This document shows positions 6,575 to 41,966 of a stretch of 64,000 nt of DNA, piece after piece (the first letter of the stretch is position 1; every line of letters begins with the position of its first letter). The stretch comes from Streptomyces turgidiscabies Car8 (lineage in GTDB: Bacteria; Actinomycetota; Actinomycetes; Streptomycetales; Streptomycetaceae). The stretch covers positions 1 to 64,000 of the forward strand of contig NZ_AEJB01000272.1 in assembly GCF_000331005.1 (NCBI RefSeq). The letters are read 5' to 3'. A model generated the notes under the pieces. That model did not search any database. It saw nothing but the letters and a program-made list of their open reading frames with translations, and was not told where the DNA came from. The position numbers and the translations under genes are program-made.

Positions 6575-6655
6575 TCTGTACCTACAGAATGCGCGCACAC
6601 TCCACCCCTTGTCAAGCCGTCTTCCAAGATGGATGCTAGTTTCTGTACCTACAGA
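6575..6655. promoter_or_regulatory. Divergent promoters with paired operators (RHH module 1)
   Basis: Two identical palindromes, TCTGTACCTACAGA, lie at 6575-6588 and 6642-6655, exactly 67 bp apart. Rightward promoter: TTGTCA (6609-6614), 17-bp spacer, GATGCT (6632-6637). Leftward promoter: TTGACA (complement of 6610-6615), 18-bp spacer, CATTCT (complement of 6586-6591). The two -35 boxes overlap, and each operator covers the -10/start region of one promoter. This suits autoregulation and co-repression by the adjacent RHH protein, which is inferred. The same geometry recurs at 41886-41966. Confidence 0.75.
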
Positions 6656-6670
6656 TGAGGGGGTGACCGC

Positions 6671-6853
6671 ATGGCCCGGCCGAAGACCGGAGAGACACCT
6701 ATCCGGAACGTCCGCGTACCCGACGGTGTCTGGGACGCCGTCAAGACCAAAGCGGCAGCAGAAGGCAGGACCATCACTGACGTCGTCGTCACTGCGCTCC
6801 ACCGGTACGCCTCAACGCCCGCCAAGGCAGGAGAGCCGCCCGCCGCCACCTGA
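6671..6853 (+). CDS. Ribbon-helix-helix DNA-binding regulator (module 1)
   Basis: This 60-residue protein, MARPKTGETPIRNVRVPDGV..., fits an Arc/CopG-type fold: a basic N-terminal strand (IRNVRVP), then two helices (GVWDAVKTKAAAEGRT, ITDVVVTALHRYAS). RHH dimers insert the strand pair into short palindromes. The two perfect palindromes in its own promoter region are the obvious targets. Its N-terminus MARPKTG-TP is shared with the second RHH protein at 41982, so the two are paralogues. A terminator follows at 6872. Confidence 0.8.
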   Translation: MARPKTGETPIRNVRVPDGVWDAVKTKAAAEGRTITDVVVTALHRYASTPAKAGEPPAAT

Positions 6854-6871
6854 CCCCGCGCACAGTAAAGC

Positions 6872-6901
6872 GGCCTCGCCCTCCCGGAGGAAGGCGAGGC
6901 C
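6872..6901 (+). terminator. Terminator after RHH gene
   Basis: GGCCTCGCC (6872-6880) pairs with GGCGAGGCC (6893-6901), 19 bases after the RHH stop codon. Confidence 0.7.
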
Positions 6902-7045
6902 AAGAGACGCCAGCGGCGGAGGAATCCGCCGAATCCCCCAGCCCTGGGGAGACGTACGGGACGTGGCGCCCTACCGTGGTCGTGCTGACGCTGCACCCGG
7001 TCGGTCCGCCAGCAACCCGGGGTGGTGCCCGGACGTGCGAAAGGA

Positions 7046-7071
7046 CCCCTCCCGCCCGAAGGCGGGAGGGG
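7046..7071 (-). terminator. Terminator at end of late (lysis) operon
   Basis: A perfect 11-bp stem, CCCCTCCCGCC with GGCGGGAGGGG, and a CGAA tetraloop lie about 80 bases beyond the last minus-strand lysis-region gene. It probably ends the long leftward late transcript. Between this and 6901 no gene was recognised. Confidence 0.75.
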
Positions 7072-7148
7072 CCGAACTACTACTGAGCTACTGATTCGTC
7101 CCAGACTGGTAGATCACTTCACGGGCGCGCGGCTACTGAAAACCCTTG

Positions 7149-7322
7149 TCACTCTGTGGGTAGCCGCGAGGCGATCACGGCCCGCACCTCCCGTCGCCAC
7201 TCCCGCTTCTCCCGGGACCGCTGGGTCTTCCCATCCACACCCGAGTCCGGGCAGTCCACGCCCGGGCTTCGACGGCACACCGGGCAGAAGGAGGGGTGGA
7301 CGCGGGCGAGCATGCGGGGCAC
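7149..7322 (-). CDS. Small zinc-binding-like protein
   Basis: This 57-residue ORF starts at GTG 7322, two bases after the upstream stop: MPRMLARVHPSFCPVCRRSP, then GVDCPDSG, then a basic helix KTQRSREKREWRREVRAVIA. CPVC plus a third Cys hints at a metal site. It is the last gene before the late terminator. Typical of small coupled actinophage genes of unknown function. Confidence 0.55.
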   Translation of the reverse strand: MPRMLARVHPSFCPVCRRSPGVDCPDSGVDGKTQRSREKREWRREVRAVIASRLPTE

Positions 7323-7324
7323 GG

Positions 7325-7477
7325 CTACTCCTCAGGCTCCGGCAGCGGGGGCGGTTCGAGGAACAAGCCCGACCACTGCGGGGAGGGCTGCTCGGGGAGA
7401 CGGCCCATCAGTTCGAGGCTGGCGGCGTCGGCGGCGGTGTCGTCGCGGCGGGGCTCGCGCGGGGCAGGTTCAGGCAT
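7325..7477 (-). CDS. Small hypothetical protein
   Basis: This 50-residue acidic, Pro-rich ORF runs MPEPAPREPRRDDTAADAAS...LFLEPPPLPEPEE. An AGGGG Shine-Dalgarno overlaps the stop of the collagen-like gene just upstream, and the next gene starts two bases after its stop, so it sits in a tightly coupled series. No domain recognised. Confidence 0.55.
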   Translation of the reverse strand: MPEPAPREPRRDDTAADAASLELMGRLPEQPSPQWSGLFLEPPPLPEPEE

Positions 7478-7485
7478 AACGACCC

Positions 7486-8148
7486 CTAGGCGTACTGCAA
7501 GCGGCGAGGATCCAACCCCGCAGCAACCTTCGACGACGGGGACTCCGACGGATCCGGGGCACCATCACGACGACACACCCGCGCATCCGGATCGTACGAC
7601 GGGGTCTGCCACGAGTAGCCGTCCTCGCACGACTGGCCAGCCGGACCAGTCGCTCCGGCGTCGCCCTTCTCGCCGCGCTCACCCTGCGGGCCCGGCACCG
7701 TGGAAACCGGACCAGGGACACCCTGTGGACCCTGGGGTCCCGGCACCGTCGAGTTAGCACCAGGCACACCAGCCGCACCCGGGCTACCAGGCGCACCCGA
7801 AGCGCCGACCGCGCCAGGGCTGCCCGCCTTACCAGTGGCGCCCGGCGGACCAGACGGGCCGACCGCCCCCGTCGGACCCGTCGCCCCTAGCGCACCCGGA
7901 GGCCCCGTCACCGAAACACCCGGCACACCCGGACTCCCCGACGGACCCGCCACCGGCGTGCCACCCAACCGCTCCACCTGCCGGGCCAGCGCATCCCGAT
8001 CCTCCACCGCCGACCGCAGATCGCGCGTCACACCCTGCACCCACAACGCCAGCACCGCCAACCCCGCCAGCGCAGCCAGCAGCCCGAGAGCGAACAGCAG
8101 GTCCTTGCGGCGCCGCTGCTGCCGCCAGCTCGCATGCGCCGCCGTCAC
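7486..8148 (-). CDS. Membrane-anchored collagen-like protein
   Basis: The 220-residue protein has a short basic N-terminus, one transmembrane helix (DLLFALGLLAALAGLAVLAL, about residues 16-35), a coiled segment, then about 110 residues of Gly-X-Y repeats (for example GPQGPQGVPGPVSTVPGPQG, GERGEKGDAGATG), and a C-terminal domain with two Cys (SCEDGYSWQTPSYDPDARVC). Collagen-like phage proteins are often structural fibres, but the membrane helix and its place behind the lysis genes argue for an envelope protein, perhaps a spanin-like or lysis accessory factor (inference). It overlaps the upstream gene by 4 bases. Confidence 0.75.
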   Translation of the reverse strand: MTAAHASWRQQRRRKDLLFALGLLAALAGLAVLALWVQGVTRDLRSAVEDRDALARQVERLGGTPVAGPSGSPGVPGVSVTGPPGALGATGPTGAVGPSGPPGATGKAGSPGAVGASGAPGSPGAAGVPGANSTVPGPQGPQGVPGPVSTVPGPQGERGEKGDAGATGPAGQSCEDGYSWQTPSYDPDARVCRRDGAPDPSESPSSKVAAGLDPRRLQYA

Positions 8149-8492
8149 GTCCCCGCCCCCTGGCTCGTCAGATACAGCGTGAGGAGCAGCATCAACACCG
8201 GGGCGATCAGCGCGGAGAAGAGCAGCCGACGGTCAGCCGCACGCCGGTCGGCCGCCTTCTGCTCCGCCTCCTGCCTCTCCCGTGCCTCCTGTGCCCGCGC
8301 CGTCTCGATCGCCTTGATCCGCTCGTTCGACAGGCGCTCGCGCTCCAACTGGGCATCCTTCTCGAACTGGAACCGCTCGATGGACACCTTGCCGTCGAGC
8401 CGCCCGGCGACGTCGCGGAAGTCCTCCTTGAGGCTCTGGTGCACGGCCTCAAGGCGGCGTACGACCTCGCCGAGTGTCGGCTCGTCCGGCAT
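8145..8492 (-). CDS. Coiled-coil protein with C-terminal membrane helix
   Basis: Of its 115 residues, 20-90 form a highly charged coiled coil (FQFEKDAQLERERLSNERIK; EARERQEAEQKAADRRAADR), ending in a single transmembrane helix (LLFSALIAPVLMLLLTLYLT). Tail-anchored coiled-coil proteins next to holins are common in actinophages and may act as lysis or membrane accessory proteins. It is co-transcribed with the holin and endolysin and overlaps the collagen-like gene. Confidence 0.7.
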   Translation of the reverse strand: MPDEPTLGEVVRRLEAVHQSLKEDFRDVAGRLDGKVSIERFQFEKDAQLERERLSNERIKAIETARAQEARERQEAEQKAADRRAADRRLLFSALIAPVLMLLLTLYLTSQGAGT

Positions 8493-8506
8493 GTAGTGCT
8501 CCTTGC

Positions 8507-8773
8507 TCAGACGCCCTTGGCAGTGGACGCGCTGTTCGTCGCACCCCGCCAGCGCGCGGCGAGGCCCTTCACCAGAGAGATGACGGCCGCAACACCGCCC
8601 GTCCCGGCGGCCTGCCAGAACGAGGCGTGGAACATGTCGGCCGGGCCGGACGCGACGACGACGGCGGTGGTGCCGCCGAGGAACGTCCAGATGATCCGCT
8701 CGGCGAGGTCTCTGCCGTAGGTGGCCGCCGTCTTCACGACGGTGTCGACGGCGGGGAGGTTGAGGTCAGACAT
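8507..8773 (-). CDS. Holin
   Basis: Small membrane protein of 88 residues with two hydrophobic helices (IIWTFLGGTTAVVVASGPA and FWQAAGTGGVAAVISLVKGL) and a basic C-terminus (AARWRGATNS). Size, topology and position directly after the endolysin gene fit the short actinophage (r1t-like) holins, which open the membrane for endolysin at a set time. The assignment rests on topology and context rather than on a diagnostic motif. Confidence 0.75.
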   Translation of the reverse strand: MSDLNLPAVDTVVKTAATYGRDLAERIIWTFLGGTTAVVVASGPADMFHASFWQAAGTGGVAAVISLVKGLAARWRGATNSASTAKGV

Positions 8774-8775
8774 GA

Positions 8776-9675
8776 TCAGTGCTCCTTCGTGAGTGCTTCA
8801 CCGAGTTCGGCGAGAGCCGCATCAGCCCCGGCCTTCGCCGCCGCCTCCACCTGCGCGGCCGTGATCCCGCCCGCGCTGCCCACCACAGCGGAGAGCGCGG
8901 TCACCGCGCCCTGCAACGCGCCGATCTGCGCGGTGGTCGCGGCGTACTTGGCGTCGCCGTAGCGCAGGAACGTCCCTGCCGTCCGCGCCGGGTTCGTGCC
9001 CTCGGCTGCGGTCGGCGAGTCGAGCAGGTACGCCCAGTTCTCTTTCGCCGACGCCTTGGCGATCTTGCTGATTTCCGCATCGGTCAGCGGCACGTCGTCC
9101 TCCTCGTTCGGGATGGTGGTGAACAAGCTGGGCATCGGGCCCGGGTCGACATGCGAGTTGCCGGGGACCTGGTTGTGGCCGTAATGGCCACCGCTACCCA
9201 TCCAGGTGTCAATGGAGACGGTGTCGCGGGCGAACGCCACAGGCGCACCACCCGGCCACCCATCGGCGATACCGAGAGACCGAAGCCAAGCCACAATGCC
9301 GGACAGACCCTTGCAAGGGGTGTCCCGCACGGTGGCGTACGTCCTACCGCCGACCGTCTCGCCCGCAGTGAAGACGGTCTCGATCTGGATGCAGTACTTC
9401 CCCGTCCGGTTCGTGCGCACCGAGCCGGCGTTCTGCAAGCTGAGACTTCGGGAGTCCGCGGGGAAGAACTGTGCGATCTCTCCGGTGAACGGGTCCCACA
9501 GCAGGTGCGGCGCCACATCGGCGCCGCCCCCGGTGAACCAGCCCAGTTCGTTGGTGAACGTCCAGTCGTGCTCGTTGCTGGTGATGTGCCAGACGGCGCG
9601 GGCGGGACCGCCGTCCATGGCGCCGGTGTTGCCGAGGGAGTGCCGGGCCGCGCCGGGCATCCACAGTTCGGGCAT
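8776..9675 (-). CDS. Endolysin (N-acetylmuramoyl-L-alanine amidase, PGRP/amidase-2 type)
   Basis: In this 299-residue protein the N-terminal half reads like a zinc amidase: RAVWHITSNEHDWTF gives the first His, and GSGGHYGHNQVPGNSHVDPG supplies the later His cluster. This family cleaves the MurNAc-L-Ala bond of peptidoglycan. After about residue 195 a linker and an Ala-rich C-terminal helical region follow (TTAQIGALQGAVTALSAVVG), which may serve in wall binding or oligomerisation. There is no signal peptide, in line with holin-dependent release. The holin gene starts 3 bases downstream. Confidence 0.88.
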   Translation of the reverse strand: MPELWMPGAARHSLGNTGAMDGGPARAVWHITSNEHDWTFTNELGWFTGGGADVAPHLLWDPFTGEIAQFFPADSRSLSLQNAGSVRTNRTGKYCIQIETVFTAGETVGGRTYATVRDTPCKGLSGIVAWLRSLGIADGWPGGAPVAFARDTVSIDTWMGSGGHYGHNQVPGNSHVDPGPMPSLFTTIPNEEDDVPLTDAEISKIAKASAKENWAYLLDSPTAAEGTNPARTAGTFLRYGDAKYAATTAQIGALQGAVTALSAVVGSAGGITAAQVEAAAKAGADAALAELGEALTKEH

Positions 9676-9772
9676 CAGCTACTCCTCGGTTCTGTCGAGG
9701 GCTCCGAGAGGGCTCCACGAGGCATGAGAAAGGCCCGCACGCCAGGCACGGGCCGAGGGGACTGCGGCAGGG

Positions 9773-10027: not shown

Positions 10028-10049
10028 AACGCTCCTCGTGTCGGTGCGG

Positions 10050-28022: not shown

Positions 28023-29577
28023 CGACGCCTCCAGGCAGTGATGCGAGGGCCTCCCGAAGTCGGCGCCGGTACGCGGCCCGGGCGCTCTCCTGCGGCAGAG
28101 CATCGCCGGGCTCCTCGCCTGGTACGGGAGGTTCACCCGGCGGCTGCCCTGTGTGCGGGACCAGTTGGGGCGGCACCGGTTTGGGCTCCGGCTTCTCCAC
28201 CGTGACCGGCTTCCCGTCCTCCGGTGTCGCAGGCTCCAGTGCTGTCCCGCGGAGCTTGTTCGCGATGGTCGCCTTACTGGCGGCGTCCATGTCGTGCCAG
28301 CGCACCAGGTTCTGGCGGTCCACGAGGATCGGCTGGTCGCCGCCGTCCACCGTGGGTTCGCCGATGTCTGTCCGGTAGCGGTCGAGCGTCCAGGAGCCGT
28401 TGCGGAGCCGCATGTCGCGGATTTCCTCGACGGTCTTGGAGTCCCGCATGTCGATGTCGCGGAACTTCAGCTTCCAGCCGTCGATTCCGAAGCCCAGCTT
28501 GGCGAGGGCGAAGTTCAGGGCTTCCAGGACGATTTCGGCGATCGGCTGGCACGTGTTGACCATGAAGGTGCGGTCCTGTGCCTCACCGGTGCCGCCGCCG
28601 ATGTTCCCCGACTCGATGACACCGGCCTTCGCCGGGGGCACCCCGTACGAGGCGATGATCTCGTCGCGCTTCTGGTCGAGGAACTTGAGGTAGTCCATCG
28701 TCCGGGACTGCGCCAGCTCCTGGATCTGCGCGCCGCCCTTGGTGGAGATCGGGTTGCCGATGTTGCGGGGGCCGATGTTGCGCTGCTGGTACTGCGCGTT
28801 CCACCGGTTGATGTCGCCCGTGGAGTTGGAGGCGGGGAAGTCGACGTGGATCTGTGCGGGCGCGCCCTTCCGGAAGATCTCCTTGCTGGTCGCCGCGGCG
28901 AACAGCCACGCCGTGATCGGCAGGAGCGCGGCCTGCGTCGGCGATACGCCGAACACGCTGGAGCGCGGCGAGTCCATGCTGATGTGGATGACCTCGCGCG
29001 GCTCGAACACCGCCCGCTGCCCCAGCTCCGTCATCTGCACATACGAGGTGACTGTGCCGTGCTCGTCCGCGATCGGCAGCATGCTCGGGCAGTCCAGCGA
29101 GTACAGCGCCACCGGCTGCTTCCCGACCCACACCACCTCGATGTACGCGTCGCCGAACACCAGGAGGTCGACGATCACCGAGCGGAGGATCTGCCGGATG
29201 TTCTCCCGCGGATTGCAGTAGCCGATCATCCGCTCCAGCAGGAGCACCTCGGCCGGCTTGTCGGGGGTCTCCTCGTCGGCCTCGCCGTTGTCGTTGTCCC
29301 AGTCGGTGACGAGGCCGCCTGCGGTGATGGTGCGGGCGATGGCGTTCACGCTGGCCCAGGCCCACGGGCATGCCATGTAGGCCTGGAAGAGCTGGTCGAG
29401 CATGGTGCGGCGGTCGGTCTGTGTGGCGGCGCCGATGCCCTGGTTGCTTTCGCTGAGGCCGCCGGGCCCGATGCCGTACTCGTAGCCGGTGCGCCCGGGG
29501 AGCTTCCGTTCGGCGGAGGCGGTCTCCAGCACTTCAGGTTCGGCCCGAAGGCCTTTCCACCAAGTCTTCAAGCTCAC
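28006..29577 (-). CDS. Portal protein
   Basis: This 523-residue protein starts at GTG 29577, overlapping the terminase stop (GTGA). The sequence runs LDQLFQAYMACPWAWASVNA, IVDLLVFGDAYIEVVWVGKQ, VFEPREVIHISMDSPRSSVF, GVSPTQAALLPITAWLFAAA, KRDEIIASYGVPPAKAGVIE. This is the standard pattern of HK97/SPP1-type phage portals. Twelve copies form the DNA entry ring. The C-terminal 100 residues are Pro-rich and disordered. It lies directly after the large terminase and before head genes. Confidence 0.93.
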   Translation of the reverse strand: MSLKTWWKGLRAEPEVLETASAERKLPGRTGYEYGIGPGGLSESNQGIGAATQTDRRTMLDQLFQAYMACPWAWASVNAIARTITAGGLVTDWDNDNGEADEETPDKPAEVLLLERMIGYCNPRENIRQILRSVIVDLLVFGDAYIEVVWVGKQPVALYSLDCPSMLPIADEHGTVTSYVQMTELGQRAVFEPREVIHISMDSPRSSVFGVSPTQAALLPITAWLFAAATSKEIFRKGAPAQIHVDFPASNSTGDINRWNAQYQQRNIGPRNIGNPISTKGGAQIQELAQSRTMDYLKFLDQKRDEIIASYGVPPAKAGVIESGNIGGGTGEAQDRTFMVNTCQPIAEIVLEALNFALAKLGFGIDGWKLKFRDIDMRDSKTVEEIRDMRLRNGSWTLDRYRTDIGEPTVDGGDQPILVDRQNLVRWHDMDAASKATIANKLRGTALEPATPEDGKPVTVEKPEPKPVPPQLVPHTGQPPGEPPVPGEEPGDALPQESARAAYRRRLREALASLPGGVDERAA

Positions 29578-32282
29578 GGGGCCTGCACCGTCCTCCCCGC
29601 TCGCGGCGTCTCGTCGTCCTCGTACCACCAGGCGTCGTCCGCGAGGGCGGGTTCGGCCGGCCGGTACGCCATGGTCGGGCCGAGAGGCTGGAGCAATTCG
29701 ACGGCCGGTTCGGCCGGCGGGGCGTCGAGGATGACCATTTCGGGGCCGGTGCCCAGATTGGTGAGGAGATACCGGACAGCGTCCGACGCGTGATCGTCGG
29801 CGGTCGTGTCAGCGTCCTCGGGGTTGCCCTTGGTGGCGTGCGGCAGGTCGGACAGCTCTCGGTACAGCTCGGTCACGGTCGAGAACAGGTGCAGCATCGG
29901 GCAGGAGTTCCAGCCCTGCGCACGGTGCTGTGGGCAGGCGGGCCCCTCTTTGAGGTAGGAGCGGACGCGCTGCCAGCCAGTGACCCGGGATCCGGCGCCT
30001 TTCCCGGCCTGGGTGAGGTGGACGCCGTTCTCGCTGTAGACATCGGCGATGGCCTTGGCATCTCCGCGGGTGGCCCACATGGCGTCGTCGGCGAACCGTA
30101 CGGCGATGTGCTCGCCAGCAGCCTCTGCTTCGAGGATCTGCTTCGCCTGGTCGGCCTCACCGACGCCGCGCCGGTAGATCTCCCTGTACACCCATACGCG
30201 GCCGTCTTCGTCGACCGCCGCCCACAGGACGGCCCACGGGGCGGTGAATCCCCAGTCGAGCCCGTTGTACCGCCTCCACGAGGCGGGCAGCGTGATCGGC
30301 TCCACGACGTGCCGGTCGCGCTTTAGTTCGGGGAACATCTGGCCCTGGAACACGTCCCAGTCACCATCCAGGAAGGCGGAGCGGAGTTTACCGTCGAGGG
30401 CTTGGAGGTCTTGGGCGTACTCCGGGTTGACGTGTGGGTTGTCGGACAGCTTCGACGGAATGAAGCGGACCGTACGGTTACGGGCGTCGGTGATGACCTT
30501 CTCGCCATAGTTCGTCGGCTTGATGTAACGGGTCTTCACCGCACCATGGCCGGCGCCGCCCGGGTTTGTGCCGGAGCGGATACCGAGCACCGGGATGTCG
30601 CGGCGGCCGGACCGGAGGCGACTCTCCAGGAACGACACCACGTCGGGCGGCGTCAGGGTCCGCTCGTCGAACAGCAGCTTCTGATACTGCCCGCCCTGCC
30701 GTCGGGTGGCGTCCTGCACGGTCTCCGCGTACCGGAACATGATCAGTGAACCGTTCGGGAATCGGAGCTCGTACTCGGTGCCGTTCCAGCGGGCGCCGAT
30801 CGCCTTGGCGTACTCCATTTGCGCCAGCTCTGCGATCAGCGATTCCTTGAGTTCCGGGTAGGAACGCCTGAAGGCGCCCACACGCAGCCCGGGGTGCGTA
30901 TCGCAGTCCCTGATGGCGTCCATGAGCAGTGCCCTGGTGTTGTGCGTGACGATGTAGTCGTCCGTCACGTACAGGTGGTTGAGGTTGTCCACCTGGATGC
31001 ACCGGCTGTTGTCGATCCCGGTCGGCTCGACGGAAACGATGCGATGCCAGGGCTCGACGTCGCCGCCGTTGAACTGGGACACGCGCTCCCGCTTGCGGGG
31101 CATGTGGAACAGTCGATCCATGTGGCGGCCCTGGACGTACAGCCGGTACGCGAGGCGTCCGTCGCGCTTCTCGCCGTTGTGGGTATAAGTCGGGGTCTTC
31201 GTAGTCAGCGTGGCCCGGTAGCCAAGGGAGCGCAGTACCTCCTGCGCATCCTTGGCCAGCTGCTCGGAAACGGTGACGAACTCGACGTGGCCACGGGCGT
31301 CCATGTGACCGTCGGTGTCCATCAGGCCCTGGATGAACGCGAAGCGGTCGGCGGCCGGGGCGAGTTTGATGCGCCTCGGGACAAACTTCTCCCAAGAGTG
31401 CAGCTTGTCCAAGCCGTCGCGCTTGATCAGGGTTGTGGCGGAGTCGCCTTCGCCGTTGCGTCGGGTGATCGCGTAGCTCGGGCAACGACCGGACTTCTGA
31501 CTTCCGGCGACCAGCTGAAGGTGGTCAGGCAGCTCGTCGGCGATCCGCTCGAACACCTCCGCATCGATGCCCGTGATGGCAACAGAACGGTTCTGGGTGC
31601 TCCCATCGCCGATCAGCGCACCGAGTACATACGGGCTGAAGACCGGCCACCGGCCCTTGGCTGCGGTGAGGTTGACCGGATTGGTCAGCGGCAGCTGCAC
31701 ATAGCGGGGGCGCAGGCCGCGCGCCTTCTCGTCGGCCGCGCGCAGCACCAGCTCGCGCAGTTCCATGGTGTTGACGATGCGGCAGCGGGACTGCACTCGC
31801 AGGTTCCACTCGTCCTCAGGCCGCAGACCGGCGGGGATGACGGGTGCAGCCTCCTTGCGGCGCTTGCGAGTGCCAGCGATGGAGATGGCCCAGAGGTGGT
31901 CTTCGTCGGCTTCCACCGTCGAACCGTCGGCAAGGGTGATCCGGTAGAACTGCTTCGGGCCGTTGTCGAAGATGCCGATGACCTTCGCCGTGGTGCCGTC
32001 CGGGTTGCAGACGGCGTCGCCGGTGCGGATGTCGCCGATGAGCTTGAACCCCTTGGGGGTCAGTACTTTGGTCTCCACCTCTGAATTATACGAGGGTGCC
32101 GCACGGTCCGGACAGCGTCCACCTTTCCCTCCGCCCGCGGCGCCGCCGTAGAGGACGTCGAACTCGGTCGCGGCGTGGAACTCGCACTGCTTCGGCGTCG
32201 GAACGTAGTCGAGCAATCCGAAGACGTTCCGCGGCTCGAACGCTTGGGCTGCGAACTCGGCCCAGTCGACGGTGGCGGTCAT
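29574..32282 (-). CDS. terL: Terminase large subunit interrupted by an intein
   Basis: The reading frame encodes 902 residues, of which about 390 are intein. Host-protein parts: the Walker A region LYGGAAGGGK (residues 44-53) resumes after the intein as TRALLMDAIRDC. The adenine/Walker B region is QYQKLLFDERTLTPPDVVSF. The C-terminal nuclease has GLDWGFTAPWAVLWAAVDED, AVRFADDAMWATRG and ADDHASDAVRYLL with acidic metal ligands. The spliced protein would be about 510 residues, normal for TerL. It packages DNA with the small subunit encoded 18 bases upstream. The gene overlaps the portal start. Confidence 0.93.
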   Translation of the reverse strand: MTATVDWAEFAAQAFEPRNVFGLLDYVPTPKQCEFHAATEFDVLYGGAAGGGKGGRCPDRAAPSYNSEVETKVLTPKGFKLIGDIRTGDAVCNPDGTTAKVIGIFDNGPKQFYRITLADGSTVEADEDHLWAISIAGTRKRRKEAAPVIPAGLRPEDEWNLRVQSRCRIVNTMELRELVLRAADEKARGLRPRYVQLPLTNPVNLTAAKGRWPVFSPYVLGALIGDGSTQNRSVAITGIDAEVFERIADELPDHLQLVAGSQKSGRCPSYAITRRNGEGDSATTLIKRDGLDKLHSWEKFVPRRIKLAPAADRFAFIQGLMDTDGHMDARGHVEFVTVSEQLAKDAQEVLRSLGYRATLTTKTPTYTHNGEKRDGRLAYRLYVQGRHMDRLFHMPRKRERVSQFNGGDVEPWHRIVSVEPTGIDNSRCIQVDNLNHLYVTDDYIVTHNTRALLMDAIRDCDTHPGLRVGAFRRSYPELKESLIAELAQMEYAKAIGARWNGTEYELRFPNGSLIMFRYAETVQDATRRQGGQYQKLLFDERTLTPPDVVSFLESRLRSGRRDIPVLGIRSGTNPGGAGHGAVKTRYIKPTNYGEKVITDARNRTVRFIPSKLSDNPHVNPEYAQDLQALDGKLRSAFLDGDWDVFQGQMFPELKRDRHVVEPITLPASWRRYNGLDWGFTAPWAVLWAAVDEDGRVWVYREIYRRGVGEADQAKQILEAEAAGEHIAVRFADDAMWATRGDAKAIADVYSENGVHLTQAGKGAGSRVTGWQRVRSYLKEGPACPQHRAQGWNSCPMLHLFSTVTELYRELSDLPHATKGNPEDADTTADDHASDAVRYLLTNLGTGPEMVILDAPPAEPAVELLQPLGPTMAYRPAEPALADDAWWYEDDETPRAGRTVQAP
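30939..32114 (-). other. Intein with LAGLIDADG homing endonuclease inside TerL Walker A
   Basis: The C-terminal splice motif is textbook: NHLYVTDDYIVTHN, then Thr as +1 residue at the codon 30936-30938. Hint block A is TKVLTPKGFKLIGDIRTGDA, and block B is ADGSTVEADEDHLWAIS. Two LAGLIDADG-like helices are VLGALIGDGS and FIQGLMDTDG. The N-terminal boundary is unclear. The nearest Cys (codon 32112-32114) follows GGR after the Walker Lys, which would leave three extra residues in the P-loop. The start could instead be the base after Lys at 32123, without a Cys, or a Ser shortly downstream. Inserting in a P-loop motif is common for inteins. Confidence 0.88.
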
Positions 32283-33443: not shown

Positions 33444-35534
33444 TCAGACGGCGTACCAGCCCCACGAGGTGCCGTTGTAGAGCGCCTGGTAGCGGCCGGT
33501 CTGCCCGGTGGTGAGGGTGGCGGTAGCAGCTCCGGTGCCGCTGCTGCTGTAGATGAGCTGGCCGCCGGTCGTGCCCACGGTCAAGGTGTTCGTGCCGACG
33601 TTCTTGAACACGTACTCGGTGGGGCAGAAGTCGGCGGCCGGGAGGGTGCCGGTGAAGCCTGCGGTGGTGGTGTCGCAGACGAGGGTGCGGTCGATGACGC
33701 TGCACGTGAACGCGCTCGTCTTCCGCTTGATCGCCCTGGGTACCTGCCCGTTGACGACTTCGATGCCGGTCGGAGCGGAGGTGGACACGCCGGACTCGGT
33801 GAACAGGCCCGTGAGGCGGACCCGGCCGAGTGCCGCGTTCATGGCCCCTGTCGAGTTGCCCGCGATGATGGGGGCGCTGGACTCGGTGGAGATGTTGGCG
33901 TAGACCGTGGGCCCGGCGCCGCCCGAACCTGCGCCGACGATGTACAGCTCGCTGGCGCAGGCCTCGATGCTCGCCGACATGGCGTCCATGGCGTGAACGG
34001 ACCCGACGGACCCTGCGTAGTTGCCGACGGCGCACAGTCCGGCCCAGCAGTACAGGGCCATGTACCGGTCGATCACGCCGTGTTCGGTCATGAACATCGC
34101 ATACGTGTAGCCGCCGCCGATGCTGACGTTCTTCGCGATGACGTAGTCGTTGTTGCCCGGTGCGGGCAGCAAGCACCCCACGCTGAGCCCGGTGCCGAAC
34201 GTGCCTGGGCTGGTGTAGTCCGTGGACGGCGAGGCGACGGTGCCGGCCGTGCCGTATCCCAGGTTCTCGATGTGGGCGTTGGCGACGCCGTACAGGTTCA
34301 GCGCCCCGTAGGTCAGCCCGTACGCGCTGTGGGTGGTCAGGATTAGCAGGTCCCGGACGACGACCATCATGTTGCTGAAGTTGGCGCCAGCGCCGTAGCC
34401 GGATCCCTCGTTGGGGCCCGAGATGACGGCCGGGTTGCCTGCCGCGTTGATGCTGGCGATCTGCGCCCCGGTGGATGCGTACACGCCGAAGCTGATGAAC
34501 CCGGAGCCAGCCATCTGCGGCACCTGCTGGAGCCAGTGGCGCACTGCTGCGGCGCCACTGGTGACTCCTCGGAATTCGAGGATCTTCTTCCCGCCGGCGG
34601 TGCTCACGGCGTCGAAGACGATCTGCCCGTTCCCGTGCTTGCTGGTGTTGAGGGGCCCGGCGATCACGGACAGGCGGGGGTTGAAGACCTGCGCGTAGGA
34701 GTGAGTTTGCAGGTAGGTCATGGCTGCGTCGGTGGCGGCCTGGACGGCGGCGGTGTCGTCGGTGCCCCAGATGACGACCGCGCCCGTGAGTGCGCCGCCG
34801 GAAGCGTTTGCCGCGTTCAGGGTGATCTGGGTGGCGCTCTGGCGGGAGGCAATCGTGGTGACCAGCGTGGTGACCCCGAGCGCCCCGGCGCCTTTCACTG
34901 AGATCGACTTGCCGACGATGCCCGTGGCCGGCCAGTTCGCGGTCGCGCTCGTCAGGACGGCCGACCCGGAGCTCATGGCGCCGTCTGCGACGACCTGGGC
35001 GTCTCCGGCTGCTCCGTACGCCGTGGCGGTGACGTCGAACACCCACGGCTGGAGCCCCTGATACTTGCCCGCCGCGTCCGCGATGGCCGCGGCCTGAGCG
35101 GTAGACGCGGCCCCCAAGGCGTCGTAGGCGTTGTTCGCGCGGGTGACCTCGGAGGCGATCTGACTGGCGGTGTACGAGTTCGCACTGCCGAGCGCGGCAG
35201 ACGCGGCGCCGAACGCGTCGAAGGCCCCGGCGCTCTGGGTGGCTGCGGTGCCGAGTCCGAGGTTCGTGCGGGCAGCGCCAGCGTTCTGGAGGTCGGACAG
35301 GTTGTTCGCGGCGAGGAGCGCCCCGACGGCGCCGCCGCCGACGGTGACTCCGCTGCCCGGCCACGCCCCGGCCGCTTTCGGCCCGTACAGGACGACGGAC
35401 GTCGGGTAGCCCGTCTTGTCGATGTAGTAGTCGCCGTCGATACCGACCGTGGGCCCGGGTGCGCCGGTGCCGTTGAGGACGGCGTTGCCGCGCGGGCCTT
35501 GCACGCCGGTCGGGGAGATGATCACGTTCGGCAC
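33444..35534 (-). CDS. Tail fibre/tailspike with beta-helix domain
   Basis: The 696-residue product starts at GTG 35534 after GGAGG. The N-terminus has a short collagen-like element (GVQGPRGNAVLNGTGAPGPT) and the DGDYYIDKTG motif common in fibres. A linker NLSDLQNAGAARTNLGLGTA follows. Residues about 255-560 are a right-handed parallel beta-helix typical of tailspikes (YGLTYGALNLYGVANAHIEN; IAKNVSIGGGYTYAMFMTEH). The C-terminal part is a beta domain ending GRYQALYNGTSWGWYAV. It probably recognises or degrades host surface glycan. It lies upstream of the terminase genes, away from the other tail genes. Confidence 0.85.
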   Translation of the reverse strand: MPNVIISPTGVQGPRGNAVLNGTGAPGPTVGIDGDYYIDKTGYPTSVVLYGPKAAGAWPGSGVTVGGGAVGALLAANNLSDLQNAGAARTNLGLGTAATQSAGAFDAFGAASAALGSANSYTASQIASEVTRANNAYDALGAASTAQAAAIADAAGKYQGLQPWVFDVTATAYGAAGDAQVVADGAMSSGSAVLTSATANWPATGIVGKSISVKGAGALGVTTLVTTIASRQSATQITLNAANASGGALTGAVVIWGTDDTAAVQAATDAAMTYLQTHSYAQVFNPRLSVIAGPLNTSKHGNGQIVFDAVSTAGGKKILEFRGVTSGAAAVRHWLQQVPQMAGSGFISFGVYASTGAQIASINAAGNPAVISGPNEGSGYGAGANFSNMMVVVRDLLILTTHSAYGLTYGALNLYGVANAHIENLGYGTAGTVASPSTDYTSPGTFGTGLSVGCLLPAPGNNDYVIAKNVSIGGGYTYAMFMTEHGVIDRYMALYCWAGLCAVGNYAGSVGSVHAMDAMSASIEACASELYIVGAGSGGAGPTVYANISTESSAPIIAGNSTGAMNAALGRVRLTGLFTESGVSTSAPTGIEVVNGQVPRAIKRKTSAFTCSVIDRTLVCDTTTAGFTGTLPAADFCPTEYVFKNVGTNTLTVGTTGGQLIYSSSGTGAATATLTTGQTGRYQALYNGTSWGWYAV

Positions 35535-36995: not shown

Positions 36996-37010
36996 GGTCA
37001 CCGCCTTGAG

Positions 37011-37083
37011 CTGGCCCGGCAGGACTCGAACCTGCAACCGGCGGCTTTGGAGACCGCTGCTCTCCCAATTGAGCTACGAACCA
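37011..37083 (-). tRNA. tRNA-Trp (CCA anticodon)
   Basis: Cloverleaf: acceptor TGGTTCG with CGGGCCA (two G-U pairs), D-arm GCTC/GAGC, anticodon stem GCGGT/GCCGC with loop CTCCAAA (anticodon CCA), T-arm GCAGG-TTCGAGT-CCTGC, discriminator G. 3' CCA is not encoded. All arms pair. TGG codons are common in the phage proteins, but a supply role is inferred. Confidence 0.9.
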
Positions 37084-37088
37084 AAGCG

Positions 37089-37169
37089 ACCGCCGGTCCG
37101 CGGGGTGAAGATCTCCGCGACCAACCAGCGATCACCCGAGGACGCTCTAGACCACTGAGCTACCAGCAG
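37089..37169 (-). pseudogene. Degenerate tRNA-Pro-like gene (CGG)
   Basis: The acceptor CTGCTGG pairs over all seven positions with CCGGCGG, and the D-arm is GCTC...GAGC. The anticodon arm GCGTC-CTCGGGT-GATCGC carries a bulged base, with loop CTCGGGT (anticodon CGG, G37 as in tRNA-Pro). The T-arm is abnormal (GCGGAG...CCCCGC, loop ATCTTCA), and three extra bases precede the acceptor 3' strand. It is probably a decaying gene. Confidence 0.6.
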
Positions 37170-37186
37170 GCCGCGTGCGGCCTTTT
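37169..37186 (+). terminator. Small hairpin plus T tract
   Basis: GGCCGC-GT-GCGGCC is followed by TTTT on the plus strand, between two tRNA remnants. It has classical intrinsic-terminator form, pointing against the late transcript. It may be a fossil of the tRNA cluster. Confidence 0.4.
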
Positions 37187-37189
37187 CTA

Positions 37190-37226
37190 TGGCTGGACGG
37201 GATTCGAACCCGCGTCTTCCCCTACG
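37190..37226 (-). pseudogene. 3' half of a lost tRNA
   Basis: Reading leftward, a variable-loop-like segment is followed by a sound T-arm (GCGGG-TTCGAAT-CCCGT) and acceptor 3' strand CCAGCCA. The matching 5' half (TGGCTGG...) is absent and the fMet-like tRNA abuts instead. A deletion between two tRNA genes would give this arrangement. Confidence 0.65.
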
Positions 37227-37299
37227 TGGCGCCGACCAGGCTCGAACTGGCGACCTCTGGGTTATGGGCCCAGCGAGCTACCAACTGCTCTACGGCGCT
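37227..37299 (-). tRNA. Initiator-like tRNA-Met (CAT)
   Basis: It is 73 bases with no encoded CCA. The acceptor AGCGCCG/CGGCGCC leaves an unpaired A1-C72, the D-stem GAGC/GCTC has A11-U24, and the anticodon stem CTGGG/CCCAG has three G-C pairs next to the loop. All are hallmarks of bacterial initiator tRNA. The core closely matches Streptomyces tRNA-fMet as I recall it. The odd base is C at position 33 (loop CCCATAA), where U is almost universal in bacteria. Confidence 0.85.
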
Positions 37300-38412: not shown

Positions 38413-38471
38413 GCGGGCCTCCCGTGGTGCTGAGGGTGTTGGGCCCAATTGTGCACTGTCCGCCGCATCGC

Positions 38472-38493: not shown

Positions 38494-38500
38494 GGTGCGG

Positions 38501-38923: not shown

Positions 38924-38954
38924 GCCGCCAGTATGCGACCGCCCCACCCGACGC

Positions 38955-39458
38955 TCAGCCGAGTTCGGCCGCCGCCGACTCGTAGCCCGCGGCCTGCGCC
39001 GGCGTCAGATAGTGCGACACCCGGACGAGAACCGAGCCGTGCACGTAGTCGTACTCGGCGAGCGCCGGCAGTGACTTGGTGACGGCCTGGATGTACTTCG
39101 CCCGGGTCTGTGCGTCGGCCTCGCTCCCGAACACTTCGATGGCGCCCCCGCGTTCGACGTCGCCTTCCTTCGTGCCGCTGATGTCGGCCGCCTTGATCCG
39201 GCTGTCCGCGAAGGTGACCTTCGACGTGTACTGGCTGGGCCGGCCGAGAAGATGGTTCGGGTCGTTCTCTGCCGTGACGGTCCCGGACAGTTTCGCGGAC
39301 GCCACCGAGGCGGAGACCTTCGCGAAGGCGCTGCTGGCGGTGAGGGGCTGGCTCGCGGGGCCGGCCTTCGCGTCGGCGGCGGGTTTCGGGTTGCTGCTGC
39401 ATGCTGCGAGTCCGGCGAGGAAGAGGGCGGCTGTGGTGGTGGTGAGGGTTCGTCTCAT
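38955..39458 (-). CDS. Phage-encoded lipoprotein
   Basis: The 167-residue protein has a Sec signal MRRTLTTTTAALFLAGLAAC ending in lipobox LAGLAAC|S, so it should be exported and lipid-anchored at Cys20. The mature part (VSASVASAKLSGTVTAENDP; GGAIEVFGSEADAQTRAKYI; PALAEYDYVHGSVLVRVSHY) is a soluble domain. Lipoproteins of temperate phages can block superinfection or change the lysogen surface; this role is inferred. It lies in a block of small non-structural genes, with a terminator about 80 bases upstream, so it probably has its own promoter. Confidence 0.8.
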   Translation of the reverse strand: MRRTLTTTTAALFLAGLAACSSNPKPAADAKAGPASQPLTASSAFAKVSASVASAKLSGTVTAENDPNHLLGRPSQYTSKVTFADSRIKAADISGTKEGDVERGGAIEVFGSEADAQTRAKYIQAVTKSLPALAEYDYVHGSVLVRVSHYLTPAQAAGYESAAAELG

Positions 39459-39541
39459 GCGGGCGATGGTGTCGCCTGGGGTGCCGGGGTGGTGACGGTG
39501 TGTCTAAGTTGTGACGAACCGTTCGGCGACCGCGCACGCGT

Positions 39542-39570
39542 GAGGGCCCACTCACGGGGAGGGGGCCCTC
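39542..39570 (-). terminator. Terminator upstream of lipoprotein gene
   Basis: GAGGGCCC and GGGCCCTC pair across a 13-base loop, 40 bases after the minus-strand stop at 39610, separating that gene from the lipoprotein gene. Confidence 0.65.
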
Positions 39571-39609
39571 GGCTATACGGCGGGTCAGGCGTCGGGCGTC
39601 TCTGTGGCG

Positions 39610-40089
39610 TCAGTGGGGGGTGCCGAGTTCAAGGAGCTCGGCGATTACGCAGTCGTCGGCGTCGCAGGGTTCGGCGTCCTCGTCGCCCCGGTCGCAGCGG
39701 CACTCGGACTCGTAGGGCTGCGGGTCGGCCAGGAGCGGGATGTCGACGTCCGGGTCGAGCCCGGCCACGATCTTCCGGGCTCGGAGTTGGGCGTCCGTCG
39801 GCTGCTCCCAGGTGTGCAGGCCGTGCCCGGTGTGGAAGCCGCCGCAGTGCCCGTCCTTGACGTGACCGCACCAGCGACAGCCGAAGAGAGTGACGGCCCG
39901 GATGCCGCTGTGGAACATGCCGTTGGCGGCGCGCAGGTGCAGGCCCCTCCGGTGGGCGGCTTCAACGTGATGGTTCCCGGTGTGCTCGCACGGCCTTCCG
40001 GTGGCCTTACAGGCTTCCTCGATGGCGTCGGCGCGGCGGTAGGCGGCTTCGGCTGCGTCCAGTTCGGCTTGAGTCTCATATACGGGCAT
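39610..40089 (-). CDS. Cys/His-rich hypothetical protein
   Basis: It starts at ATG 40089 after AGGA (ATG 40098 is alternative), giving 159 residues. Helical start TQAELDAAEAAYRRADAIEE, then CEHTGNHHVEAAHRRGLHLR, TLFGCRWCGHVKDGHCGGFH, TGHGLHTWEQPTDAQL, and a C-terminal DDCVIAELLELGTPH. CxxC...C plus many His suggests zinc binding. The helical start is shared with many actinophage proteins. Function unknown. Confidence 0.65.
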   Translation of the reverse strand: MPVYETQAELDAAEAAYRRADAIEEACKATGRPCEHTGNHHVEAAHRRGLHLRAANGMFHSGIRAVTLFGCRWCGHVKDGHCGGFHTGHGLHTWEQPTDAQLRARKIVAGLDPDVDIPLLADPQPYESECRCDRGDEDAEPCDADDCVIAELLELGTPH

Positions 40090-40115
40090 GTGGTTCATCC
40101 TGTCGGGTCGGGCGG

Positions 40116-40655
40116 TCAGGCGGGGTCGTCCTGCTGCTCGCAGGCCTGGAGTTCGTGGATCGCATCGTCCAGAGTCAGCGGCGCCTCGTCGTCGCGGTCT
40201 TCGTCGCCGTACTCGACGATCCGGGGATTGGAGGGGTCGGAACAGTCGAGGCGGTACCAGCCGTCCGGGTCGAGTCCCACCCACGGAGGGCAGGTGCACG
40301 GGGAGGCGGGGAGCGCGTACGACTGCATCGTGATGCAGTCCACGAAGTGACTGGCCATGGCGGGTATCCGTTCAGGGTCGGGTGTTGGGTCGGAGGCCGG
40401 CGCGCCTGCTGCCGTGAGCGGGCCCCGCCAGCCGGGTGCCCGCTCGATCGTCTGCACTTTCCCGATCTCGGCCATCTGCTCGTTGGTGGCGAGGTAGGCG
40501 CGACCGCCCTCGTCGTTCTTGAAGTAGAGGATCCCGTCGATGCCCCCGATGGTGAGGACGTCGAGGACGGTTCCGGTCATGACGCCGACGGGGCCGTGGT
40601 TGCCGGGGGTGCGGGTGACGGTGATGCGGTCACCGGGGGCGGGGGTGTAGGCCAT
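40116..40655 (-). CDS. Hypothetical protein with SH3-like start
   Basis: In this 179-residue protein, MAYTPAPGDRITVTRTPGNH, GVMTGTVLDVLTIGGIDGIL is like small beta-barrel domains. The later part has CITMQSYALPASPCTCPPWV and GWYRLDCSDPSNPRIVEYGD, with acidic DEDRDDEAPLTLDDAIHELQ at the end. No family recognised. Cotranscribed leftward; a strong hairpin at 40717-40739 separates it from the gene upstream. Confidence 0.65.
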   Translation of the reverse strand: MAYTPAPGDRITVTRTPGNHGPVGVMTGTVLDVLTIGGIDGILYFKNDEGGRAYLATNEQMAEIGKVQTIERAPGWRGPLTAAGAPASDPTPDPERIPAMASHFVDCITMQSYALPASPCTCPPWVGLDPDGWYRLDCSDPSNPRIVEYGDEDRDDEAPLTLDDAIHELQACEQQDDPA

Positions 40656-40716
40656 GGCGGGCTCCTTCGGATCAAGCGGCGAGTGCGTCGGCGAGCAGCT
40701 GGACGCGGGCGGTGGC

Positions 40717-40739
40717 GGGGCCCGTGGACGGCGGGCCCC
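40717..40739 (-). terminator. Intercistronic hairpin
   Basis: GGGGCCCG and CGGGCCCC pair around TGGACGG, 10 bases after the stop at 40749. Perfect 8-bp stem. Confidence 0.55.
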
Positions 40740-40748
40740 TGGGTGTGA

Positions 40749-41459
40749 TCAGTCGGAGGACCAGCCGGCCCACTCCGGCTCGATGAAGCTGACGGTGCCG
40801 GACGTGTAGCGGATCAGCTCGCCGTGCTTGTGGAGCCGGTGCACGGCGCCCTGGTCGTCGGTGACCCGCCATGACGAGCCGAGCGGGTCCTCGACGGTGG
40901 CGATTGTGCGGTCGTCGGGCAGGGGGGCGCCGGGGGTGATGGCGTACTGGTCGTAGCCGAGCGCGCGCCCGTTCGCGGGTACGGTCTTCAGGATCTCCGG
41001 CTTCGGACCGGTGAGAGCCTGCATGAGGGGCAGGTCGTCGCGGCTGCCGTACTTCTCCAGGCCGTCGCACCAGTCGGTCGTCGCCTCGACGGGGCCGACT
41101 GCGGGTACGTCGATGGTGACGGTGATCTCCTCGGCGGTCCACTTCGTGCCGTCGCTGATGCTGCGTTCGACCTGGCGGGAGGTGACGGTGCCGCCGACGC
41201 GCTCGTACAGGTCGTTCAGCTCCAACTGGGACCACAGGATGATGCGGGTCTCGGTCTCGCCGTGCTCGGCGCTCGGCTTCCAGTACCGGAGGTCGAGCGC
41301 GTCCCGGACCTGGCGGGCGAGCTTCTCGTCGAAGACGACCGGCTCGGGCTCCGGGTCGGGGGTCGGGGTGTTGAGGTCGCGGATGGGCTGCGGGTCGATG
41401 GGGGCGAGGACGAGGGCGGTTCCGATGATGCTGACGGTGGCGAGTTCGATGGTGCTCAA
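40749..41459 (-). CDS. Hypothetical protein, TTG start, N-terminal hydrophobic helix
   Basis: I start it at TTG 41459 because AGGAG lies 6-7 bases upstream. It gives 236 residues: LSTIELATVSIIGTALVLAP (short hydrophobic N-terminus, possible anchor), then KLARQVRDALDLRYWKPSAE, VGGTVTSRQVERSISDGTKW, a beta-rich domain, and HRLHKHGELIRYTSGTVSFI near the end. Probably a membrane-tethered or soluble phage protein of unknown role. It lies downstream of the module 2 gene at 41519 and may be under the same operator. Confidence 0.65.
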   Translation of the reverse strand: MSTIELATVSIIGTALVLAPIDPQPIRDLNTPTPDPEPEPVVFDEKLARQVRDALDLRYWKPSAEHGETETRIILWSQLELNDLYERVGGTVTSRQVERSISDGTKWTAEEITVTIDVPAVGPVEATTDWCDGLEKYGSRDDLPLMQALTGPKPEILKTVPANGRALGYDQYAITPGAPLPDDRTIATVEDPLGSSWRVTDDQGAVHRLHKHGELIRYTSGTVSFIEPEWAGWSSD

Positions 41460-41518
41460 CGCGGTCTCCTGACGGTGCGTGCTGCGGGTCTGGGTGGTCT
41501 GCTTCGTCGTGGAGTGAT

Positions 41519-41860
41519 CTACGCGGCGAGGGCGAGCCTGGCGGCGGCGACCTTGTAGGCGGGCTTGCGGGGGCGGTAGATGACCGCGATGCGGGCGACC
41601 TCGGCGGGCGTGTACCTCGTGCAGGTGTGGGCCTTGATGTTCTTGGCGTAGCTGATTCCGGCCTGTCCAGTGACGTCGGCCTTGTCCGCGTTCTTGCGGA
41701 GGGACCCGGCGACTGAGCGCGCCTCCTTGGGGGCGAGTCCGGCGGCGATGCAGTGGGTGGCGAGGGTGCCGACGCCGTTGCGGCGGATCTTCGCGGCGGC
41801 GCGGTTGGTGCGGGTGCGCTGGGCGAGGATGCGGCGGGCGGTGCGGGTGCGGTCGGTCAT
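41519..41860 (-). CDS. Basic protein controlled by RHH module 2
   Basis: This 113-residue protein, ATG 41860 after AGGGGGA, is strongly basic: MTDRTRTARRILAQRTRTNR, AAAKIRRNGVGTLATHCIAA, then a helical region GLAPKEARSVAGSLRKNADK and KAHTCTRYTPAEVARIAVIY. It may bind nucleic acid. It is divergent from the second RHH gene, with the paired operators between. Unlike the gene in the same slot of module 1, it has no zinc motif. Confidence 0.7.
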   Translation of the reverse strand: MTDRTRTARRILAQRTRTNRAAAKIRRNGVGTLATHCIAAGLAPKEARSVAGSLRKNADKADVTGQAGISYAKNIKAHTCTRYTPAEVARIAVIYRPRKPAYKVAAARLALAA

Positions 41861-41885
41861 CTTGTCCCCCTGCTGCGGTGCGGTT

Positions 41886-41966
41886 TCTGTAATACGAGAA
41901 TGCACCCGGACCGGCAGGGTTGTCAAGCGACTTGCGCAGGTGGATGCTAGTTCCTGTAATACGACA
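41886..41966. promoter_or_regulatory. Divergent promoters with paired operators (RHH module 2)
   Basis: Half-sites CTGTAATACGA occur at 41887 and 41954, exactly 67 bp apart as in module 1. Rightward promoter: TTGTCA (41920-41925), 17 bp, GATGCT (41943-41948). Leftward: TTGACA (complement of 41921-41926), 18 bp, CATTCT (complement of 41897-41902). Spacers, overlap of -35 boxes and operator phase are identical to module 1; only the operator bases differ (GTA-A-TAC here, GTA-CC-TAC there). Confidence 0.75.

Follow-up and report, generated by a model that had tools for sequence, protein, structure and literature searches.

How two small regulatory modules in one genome came to share a promoter architecture while carrying different operators is the question raised by contig NZ_AEJB01000272.1 of Streptomyces turgidiscabies Car8, of which we analyzed the first 64,000 bases of 70,470 bp (hereafter, the window). 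About 35 kb apart, two genes encode putative ribbon-helix-helix (RHH) proteins, RHH1 and RHH2, each divergent from another gene. An earlier reading made from the DNA letters alone (the sequence-only reading) had proposed a switch duplicated within one phage, with repressor and operators diverging together to yield insulated, autoregulated circuits. The analyses reported here make it likely that each module is a local autorepressor switch acting on back-to-back promoters, with a specificity that can be interchanged.

Two predicted divergent promoters on one shared heptamer

Both loci were read directly and their features placed by script, delimiting module 1 at positions 6575-6853 and module 2 at positions 41883-42179:

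6028-6549, minus strand: left (divergent) gene of module 1, 173 amino acids, starts MSVMTEN, unknown function, own gene call
6575-6588, no strand: left operator of module 1, TCTGTACCTACAGA, a 14-bp palindrome with core TGTACCTACA at 6577-6586
6586-6591, minus strand: predicted leftward -10 element of module 1, CATTCT (AGAATG on the plus strand)
6609-6615, no strand: -35 heptamer TTGTCAA/TTGACAA, shared by both predicted divergent promoters of module 1
6632-6637, plus strand: predicted rightward -10 element of module 1, GATGCT, 17-bp spacer
6642-6655, no strand: right operator of module 1, TCTGTACCTACAGA, 67 bp from the left operator
6671-6853, plus strand: RHH1, 60 amino acids, begins MARPKTGETPIRNVRVP, residue 13 is N
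41519-41860, minus strand: left (divergent) gene of module 2, 113 amino acids, phrog_10890 (unknown function)
41888-41896, no strand: left operator of module 2, TGTAATACG
41897-41902, minus strand: predicted leftward -10 element of module 2, CATTCT (AGAATG on the plus strand)
41920-41926, no strand: shared -35 heptamer of module 2, TTGTCAA
41943-41948, plus strand: predicted rightward -10 element of module 2, GATGCT
41955-41963, no strand: right operator of module 2, TGTAATACG, 67 bp from the left operator
41982-42179, plus strand: RHH2, 65 amino acids, begins MARPKTGQTPVKTFRPP, residue 13 is T

In both modules CATTCT (minus strand) lies 18 bp to the left and GATGCT 17 bp to the right of a central TTGTCAA in which the two -35 boxes coincide, and each operator adjoins or overlaps a -10 element and start region. 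Direct reading confirmed the operators, 67-bp spacing, promoter hexamers and MARPKTG protein start that the sequence-only reading had reported for both modules (RHH1 and RHH2 both start MARPKTG(E/Q)TP), and corrected its placement of the operators over the -35 boxes. The two module 2 sites that it had named are present, but they are degenerate with respect to the 9-bp palindrome, TGTAWTACA, seen in relatives. Its autoregulatory layout is likewise supported by the position of the predicted operators, at both promoters beside the RHH gene. An additional promoter-like pair, TTGTCA-16-CAGAAT, overlaps the module 1 left operator (window positions 6563-6590, plus strand).

The same arrangement was recovered by two kinds of search. 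The promoter scaffold (TTGTCAAG-N14-GGATGCTAG) was found in 14 IMG/VR stretches, 13 with operators (two of them on a contig carrying the same modules as the window) and one a chance match (L017); allowing at most one mismatch, it was present in 5 of 391 other genomes of the genus, with paired operators in all five. Protein searches, which are blind to the scaffold, yielded 10, 3, 54 and 32 partly overlapping loci in IMG/VR and matches in 16 of 392 same-genus and 12 of 249 family genomes, the own genome included and a few matches weak or broken, as well as RHH relatives on circular and linear plasmids of Streptomyces and Kitasatospora. From the IMG/VR, genus and plasmid loci we tabulated 74 distinct proteins bearing an RPxTG arm, counting the two of the window, and called their operators automatically without using the protein; proteins lacking the arm were excluded from this table and from the 84-row table described below. 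Most tabulated modules were found by protein, with L112 and L019-L023 first found by scaffold, and phages GMA1, BritBrat, prophi91-1 and Babsiella and a Prescottella equi plasmid have no rows in the tables.

Paired operators 60-72 bp apart were called for 64 of the 74 proteins, at a spacing of 66 bp in 43, 67 bp in 18, and 65, 68 and 70 bp in one each. The exact 67-bp spacing claimed by the sequence-only reading holds, therefore, in both window modules without being universal, and the motif pair whose absence upstream of homologues it had named as its refutation accompanies 61 of the 74 proteins at 66 or 67 bp, the window's two among them. Searching phages by tblastn with RHH2 and with a G13 relative gave no match, a contig scan with the window's 18-bp left spacer (absent from most relatives) gave 22 matches that were chance-like by their titles, and among the matches listed by a relaxed viral scaffold scan most were chance. 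From the tabulated loci, we regard the cassette as widespread in both phages and plasmids.

The promoter geometry of the 61 modules spaced at 66 or 67 bp is constant, as the sequence-only reading had proposed from two examples: 54 of them have an exact TTGTCAA, 48 an exact AGAATG and 35 an exact GATGCT. The rightward spacer measures 17 bp in all 34 scorable modules, and the leftward spacer 17 bp in 35 and 18 bp in 12; in every one of the 47 scorable modules, a leftward spacer of 17 bp goes with an operator spacing of 66 bp and one of 18 bp with 67 bp. Furthermore, AGAATG starts 9 bases after the operator TGT begins in 47 of 47 modules, irrespective of whether the operator core spans 9 or 10 bp, and this offset is the same across three operator classes. 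Since the one-base difference in operator spacing tracks the leftward spacer, the spacing appears to be set by the geometry of two predicted promoters that have one -35 heptamer in common and carry an operator at each -10/start region. DNA looping was rejected as the reason for the 67 bp because of this tracking; the distance corresponds to about 6.3 helical turns (calculated by hand at 10.5 bp per turn), which does not favor a simple loop.

Outside the modules, the motifs are rare. When up to three mismatches are allowed, two copies of the module 1 operator are present in the window where 0.01 would be expected, a number reached in none of 100 shuffles; the module 2 motif alone is weaker, with two occurrences against 0.27 expected and 4 of 100 shuffles reaching two. 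Across the strain's own 10.8-Mb genome, the scaffold is perfect at the two modules only and recurs with three mismatches at two more places (a reversed control gives three), and a 20-mer comprising the module 2 left operator and -10 element occurs once at up to three mismatches, a search that did not include the bare 9-bp core. The module 1 operator is restricted to its own two sites at up to two mismatches, and as the genome holds no further copy, the targets of RHH1, at any rate, seem to be exclusively local.

Operator class and residue 13 of the repressor strand

The tabulated operators fall into classes that follow residue 13 of the protein, located in the predicted DNA-reading strand. We compared residue 13 and operator class in 84 proteins, consisting of the 74 tabulated ones and ten later finds. 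Under class rules written after the 74-protein table had been seen, and counting a row if either site fits, N13 accompanies TGTACYTACA in 32 of 34 proteins, G13 or A13 accompanies TGTTNAACA in 18 of 18, and S13 or T13 accompanies TGTAWTACA in 22 of 26 (four S13 rows called via TTTCTGTAA were assigned to this class by reading TGTAATACG there). Both H13 proteins and one of the two R13 proteins have TGTGNNCACA, and the two Y13 proteins have other sites. Predicting the class from residue 13 succeeded for six of eight non-redundant later-found proteins within the 84, a set that excludes the near-copies L357 and L285, other residue-13 kinds and arm-less proteins; of the other two, L361, which has a single site, escaped the automatic call, and L320 does not fit. 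That operators and repressors diverged together, as the sequence-only reading had suggested, is in agreement with these counts.

A wider family defined by the protein body (W21 ... PGAKLPERP), with 84 IMG/VR relatives, 80 of which were kept, and representatives in 35 of 392 same-genus genomes, extends the series to about ten operator classes, the rarer of which rest on two or three proteins. Its [AP]RQ[IM] strands are found mostly with TGTAGCTACA, HRS[VI] with TGTACGTACA, NRV[VI] with TGCATATGCA, HRPI with TGGATATCCA, RKF with TGTGGCCACA, some RQT/RRT with TGTCATGACA and IQHV with TGTGTACACA. Considering residue 13 alone, Q13 is associated with TGTAGCTACA or a one-base variant in 15 of 16 proteins, V13 with TGCATATGCA in 6 of 6 and K13 with TGTGGCCACA in 3 of 3; some rows of this family have a mislocated strand motif (such as SAEL or SNIT), which a filter on residue 12 was meant to remove. 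Palindrome pairs, either TGGTTAACCA-like or TGGCTTGCCA, also accompany more distant RHH-like genes (L408, L430, L465 and L470; L467, L469 and L471), in which the strand residues are not reliably placed.

The contributions of strand and body were separated in 108 proteins, obtained from 155 by requiring a called operator (147, some of the calls doubtful) and removing near-copies. With operator distance computed from the four outer bases on each side and the length only, strand and operator remain correlated when body is controlled (partial Mantel r 0.161; 0 of 2000 shuffles). Between proteins of body identity below 0.5, the operator was predicted at a rate of 0.53 by the nearest strand, 0.29 by the nearest body and 0.17 by any protein, in a test that covers the 78 of 108 proteins with a near strand and gives double weight to residue 13, a weighting chosen after seeing the data. 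At body identity of at least 0.5, operators were near-equal in 362 of 395 pairs that share residue 13 and in 260 of 665 pairs that do not; at body identity below 0.3, they were near-equal in 94 of 168 pairs with equal residue 13 and in 812 of 2444 others. Taken together, these comparisons make a strand-to-operator code a well-supported pattern, although not a proof of one. A strict one-residue, four-letter code was dropped: Y13 and R13 are mixed, and S/T proteins are split by residue 14 and body.

Origin of the pair and its surroundings

A recent duplication inside this phage was not supported by comparison with other elements. RHH1 and RHH2 are 40% identical to each other, as opposed to 77-90% identical to proteins of other contigs (84-90% for RHH1, with proteins from two other viral contigs, and 77-83% for RHH2). 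Recent duplication within the phage was therefore rejected, and the two proteins are best described, from these identities, as two old members of a diverse family living together. A prophage-like region, G248, has the same two-module layout, 37 kb apart and with N13 and S13; its integrase is 52%, its XRE regulator 85% and two structural proteins 27-29% identical to those of the window, and the two classes seem to have been paired for a long time in this lineage.

Six elements have two comparable called modules, which differ in operator in five cases and agree in one. Their residues at position 13 are N/T (G000), N/S (G248), T/G (G398), N/N (CP107743), N/Q (contig 3300037743_000151) and H/Q (contig 3300005337_000004). 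These elements were paired by hand from contig names, not exhaustively, and do not include those with an uncalled second operator, such as the contigs of L208/L433 and L196/L327. By hand calculation from the class counts, about 0.69 of randomly drawn pairs would be expected to differ, and five of six is not above chance. Insulation of the two window modules is plausible rather than proven. CP107743 and CP108738 are circular 92-94-kb plasmids of Streptomyces tubercidicus, and both carry type III polyketide synthase/PhlD genes a few kb from their RHH modules (L293 and L298, respectively).

The divergent genes are far more varied than the promoters. Called by a simple rule of start codon and ribosome site, the left genes of 72 modules form 47 families, 36 of them with a single member. 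Five families adjoin more than one operator class (one of these when an unclassified operator is counted), and the largest, with 11 members including the gene at 6028-6549, stands beside three; this distribution suggests that cargo and specificity have both been exchanged around a fixed promoter. A homologue of the module 2 left gene adjoins another module (L238), again on its left. Scans of 65 left genes with Pfam and PADLOC gave few families, Pfam recognizing eight, with WYL in three genes and AlpA-like in two. The left genes of L191, L205 and L237 constitute one family and are possibly the three with WYL domains.

Downstream of the two RHH genes, two further features were located:

6871-6902, no strand (listed for the minus strand; stem symmetric): G+C-rich 14-pair inverted repeat after RHH1, a possible terminator
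42176-42439, plus strand: gene for 87 amino acids, own gene call, overlapping the end of RHH2 (ATGA) and possibly co-transcribed with it; no PHROG match at E 0.01

The contig encodes a serine integrase (phrog_95 match; Resolvase and Recombinase domains in Pfam), a nearby XRE regulator of 397 amino acids (phrog_5823, E 2.7e-119), an endolysin match, tape measure, major head protein, terminase, DnaB-like helicase and replication initiation genes, and on this gene content we take it to carry a temperate tailed-phage element. Our own gene calls place module 1 with the integrase/XRE end on one side and the lysis genes on the other, and put module 2 at the head of a long array of leftward genes. Megablast of window positions 1-25000 found no close INPHARED phage relative. 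In the 902-amino-acid terminase reading frame (29574-32282, minus strand), a Walker-A-like GGAAGGGKG is found near residue 50, residues 313-391 match LAGLIDADG homing endonucleases, and the terminase matches lie mostly from residue 449 onward; the frame probably contains an intein. Collagen triplet repeats are present in the gene at 7486-8148 (minus strand; Pfam Collagen, E 1.2e-12), and the gene at 33444-35534 (minus strand) has a collagen-like start by eye and no Pfam match. Phage tRNA-Trp and tRNA-Met(CAT) genes are located at 37010-37299 (minus strand), inside the leftward array.

A predicted local switch, its alternatives and its relatives

Evidence that RHH1 and RHH2 adopt the RHH fold is weak but consistent. 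Both match the Arc-like repressor family phrog_6506 (E 6.7e-17 and 1.8e-28, respectively). The Pfam Arc model scores 16.9 bits against RHH1, below the model cut-off, no Pfam RHH model matches RHH2, and no helix-turn-helix family in Pfam matches either protein. A PDB profile search gave weak matches to ORF56 (E 0.029), Mnt (0.08) and Arc (0.59). In a monomer model, helices at residues 18-31 and 35-48 follow the strand region, in which no strand is assigned; the best Foldseek rows are Arc-operator chains (E 0.27 to 0.47), and the VIA match rows are mostly what we take to be RHH proteins. The VIA alignment pairs model residues 10-52 with Arc 8-50, which puts residue 13 at the position of Arc Asn11.

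The proposed switch would operate as follows. Two back-to-back promoters would share a single -35 heptamer (TTGTCAA/TTGACAA), and the RHH repressor, made from the rightward one, would bind both palindromes at the -10/start regions, each read by a dimer through its strand, as expected of the RHH family. Bound repressor would block RNA polymerase on both sides, repressing its own gene and the divergent left gene or operon. Operator spacing would be fixed by the two promoters and specificity by the β-strand, chiefly residue 13 and its neighbors, so that one scaffold could serve different repressor/operator pairs; in this prophage, the N13 protein would act on TGTACCTACA and the T13 protein on TGTAATACG, probably without cross-regulation. 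More speculatively, entry into a repressor-free cell might allow a short burst of left-gene expression until repressor builds up. Anatomy, recurrence, constant geometry and the strand-operator association are established, and we infer binding, dual repression, start sites and insulation.

Several results weigh against this reading. A sigma-70 scan listed none of the four module promoters, whose -10 hexamers match the usual consensus poorly; Foldseek gave no match at E 0.001 or below, and the best VIA Z, 4.9, is weak. L206, L183, L320 (T13), L361 (S13, one site), L196, L174 (N13) and L030 (R13) are exceptions to the residue 13 classes. Below a body identity of 0.3, mean operator distance hardly differs by residue 13 (2.53 vs 2.61), and in the sole pair whose residues 11-14 are identical, the called operators are quite different. 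On CP107743, two N13 modules separated by about 3 kb belong to the same operator class, with one mismatch in one of the four operator sites. Body and operator are also correlated with strand controlled (partial Mantel r 0.114; 13 of 2000 shuffles), and a body-only tree, weak with 83 proteins and 46 columns, provided three supported contrasts for N (mean 2.8 concordant), one for G/A and five for S/T (mean 2 concordant, 3 without difference), none of them significant in what is an underpowered test.

These last two results bear on an explanation by shared ancestry, in which neighboring repressor and operators are simply inherited together and residue 13 does not choose the site. The classes cluster strongly on the tree, supported independent contrasts are few, and body predicts operator even with strand controlled, all as expected from co-inheritance. 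We nevertheless consider ancestry alone unlikely, given that one and the same operator accompanies bodies that have diverged widely (N13 in L202, L244, L351 and the window type; H13 in L182 and L209), that residue 13 varies among N, T, H, Q, S, V and K within a single body family and the operators shift in parallel, and that the nearest strand outpredicts the nearest body. About equally improbable is that the RHH proteins are the prophage immunity repressors and the operator classes immunity groups. Specificities do vary between phages as in heteroimmunity, and the RHH regulators Arc and Mnt act in the immunity of phage P22; however, the XRE regulator near the integrase (phrog_5823) is a better candidate, the genome has no additional RHH1 operator, and the left genes vary between phages.

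A higher-order protein-DNA complex such as a relaxosome or partition complex, with transcriptional control secondary, is a still less probable basis for the 66/67-bp pair. The site spacing and single-residue specificity change of SmpO (PMC8136818) and a ParB/Srx-domain gene near one module (L294) would suit it, whereas the one-base spacing difference tracks the promoter spacer in all 47 scorable modules with a fixed register of operator to -10 element, about 6.3 helical turns are unfavorable to a simple loop, and no relaxase or ParA appears among scanned or annotated neighbors, in which no dedicated search was made. An antitoxin role for the RHH protein, with the divergent gene as toxin, is very improbable: the antitoxins MazE, TacA and AtaR are among the VIA fold matches, but the partner is divergent instead of lying in the same operon, and the left genes of 72 modules belong to 47 families. 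On the RHH side, RHH1 is followed by an inverted repeat and RHH2 by the 87-amino-acid gene without PHROG match. The toxin-antitoxin pair was rejected on the grounds that left genes are unrelated across modules.

The local autorepressor switch can also be compared with described systems. To our knowledge, base selection by the short RHH strand is known from few examples. The cassette resembles Arc-like phage repressors (phrog_6506) in belonging to a small phage repressor family with an Arc-like alignment register, albeit with weak scores, and differs from them in its N-terminal (A/G)RPxTG arm, in its two sites 66/67 bp apart on back-to-back promoters, and in the many specificities found on one scaffold. 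SmpO, an RHH relaxosome factor of staphylococcal pWBG749 plasmids, is described as having ossA and ossB sites 65-67 bp apart, with central bases that vary by subtype and a specificity that shifts with a single residue change in the strand region (PMC8136818). Sites 65-67 bp apart are found in 62 of 64 paired modules here; in contrast, SmpO acts at an origin of transfer beside a relaxase and on a GNNNNC core, whereas the cassette's TGT...ACA sites frame two promoters, and no relaxase is named among scanned neighbors or annotated plasmid regions, a survey without a dedicated search.

Aca proteins are described as small autoregulators acting at inverted repeats in a promoter that also drives acr genes (PMC9410906), and in archaeal viruses shared regulatory sequences are reported to mark small early genes (PMC11065993). 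The cassette shares with Aca a small autoregulator and inverted repeats in the promoter; Aca1-10 are of the helix-turn-helix type and encoded in one operon with acr genes, whereas here the family match is Arc-like with no helix-turn-helix, and the variable gene is divergent and without known function. Among the literature titles and abstracts searched, in which subscription journals are largely uncovered, none describing this cassette was found. The cassette resembles Aca and archaeal early regulation and differs in fold and gene order.

A broader interpretation can be offered only tentatively. It holds that this is a portable cassette of actinobacterial phages and phage-like plasmids, in which left-gene cargo and DNA specificity can both be swapped, residues 11-14 form a code, new specificities are favored and the left genes are early; its classes would be TGTACYTACA, TGTAWTACA, TGTTNAACA, TGTAGCTACA, TGTACGTACA, TGCATATGCA, TGGATATCCA, TGTCATGACA, TGTGGCCACA and TGTGTACACA. 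If true, new specificities would be favored on two counts: a phage entering a cell whose resident prophage belongs to its own class would have its early genes shut off by the resident repressor, and an element with two classes could run two switches without crosstalk. Such selection through phage competition is speculative. The left genes would then amount to a catalogue of early, possibly anti-defense, genes.

Small genes of 47 families, most of them unknown, are singled out by the cassette as probably being under a common mode of control. Furthermore, about a hundred non-redundant repressor/operator pairs (108) in some ten classes offer a natural series for strand-to-base rules, which the fixed promoter frame in the phage group makes directly testable, and this series could supply independent repressors for Streptomyces genetics.

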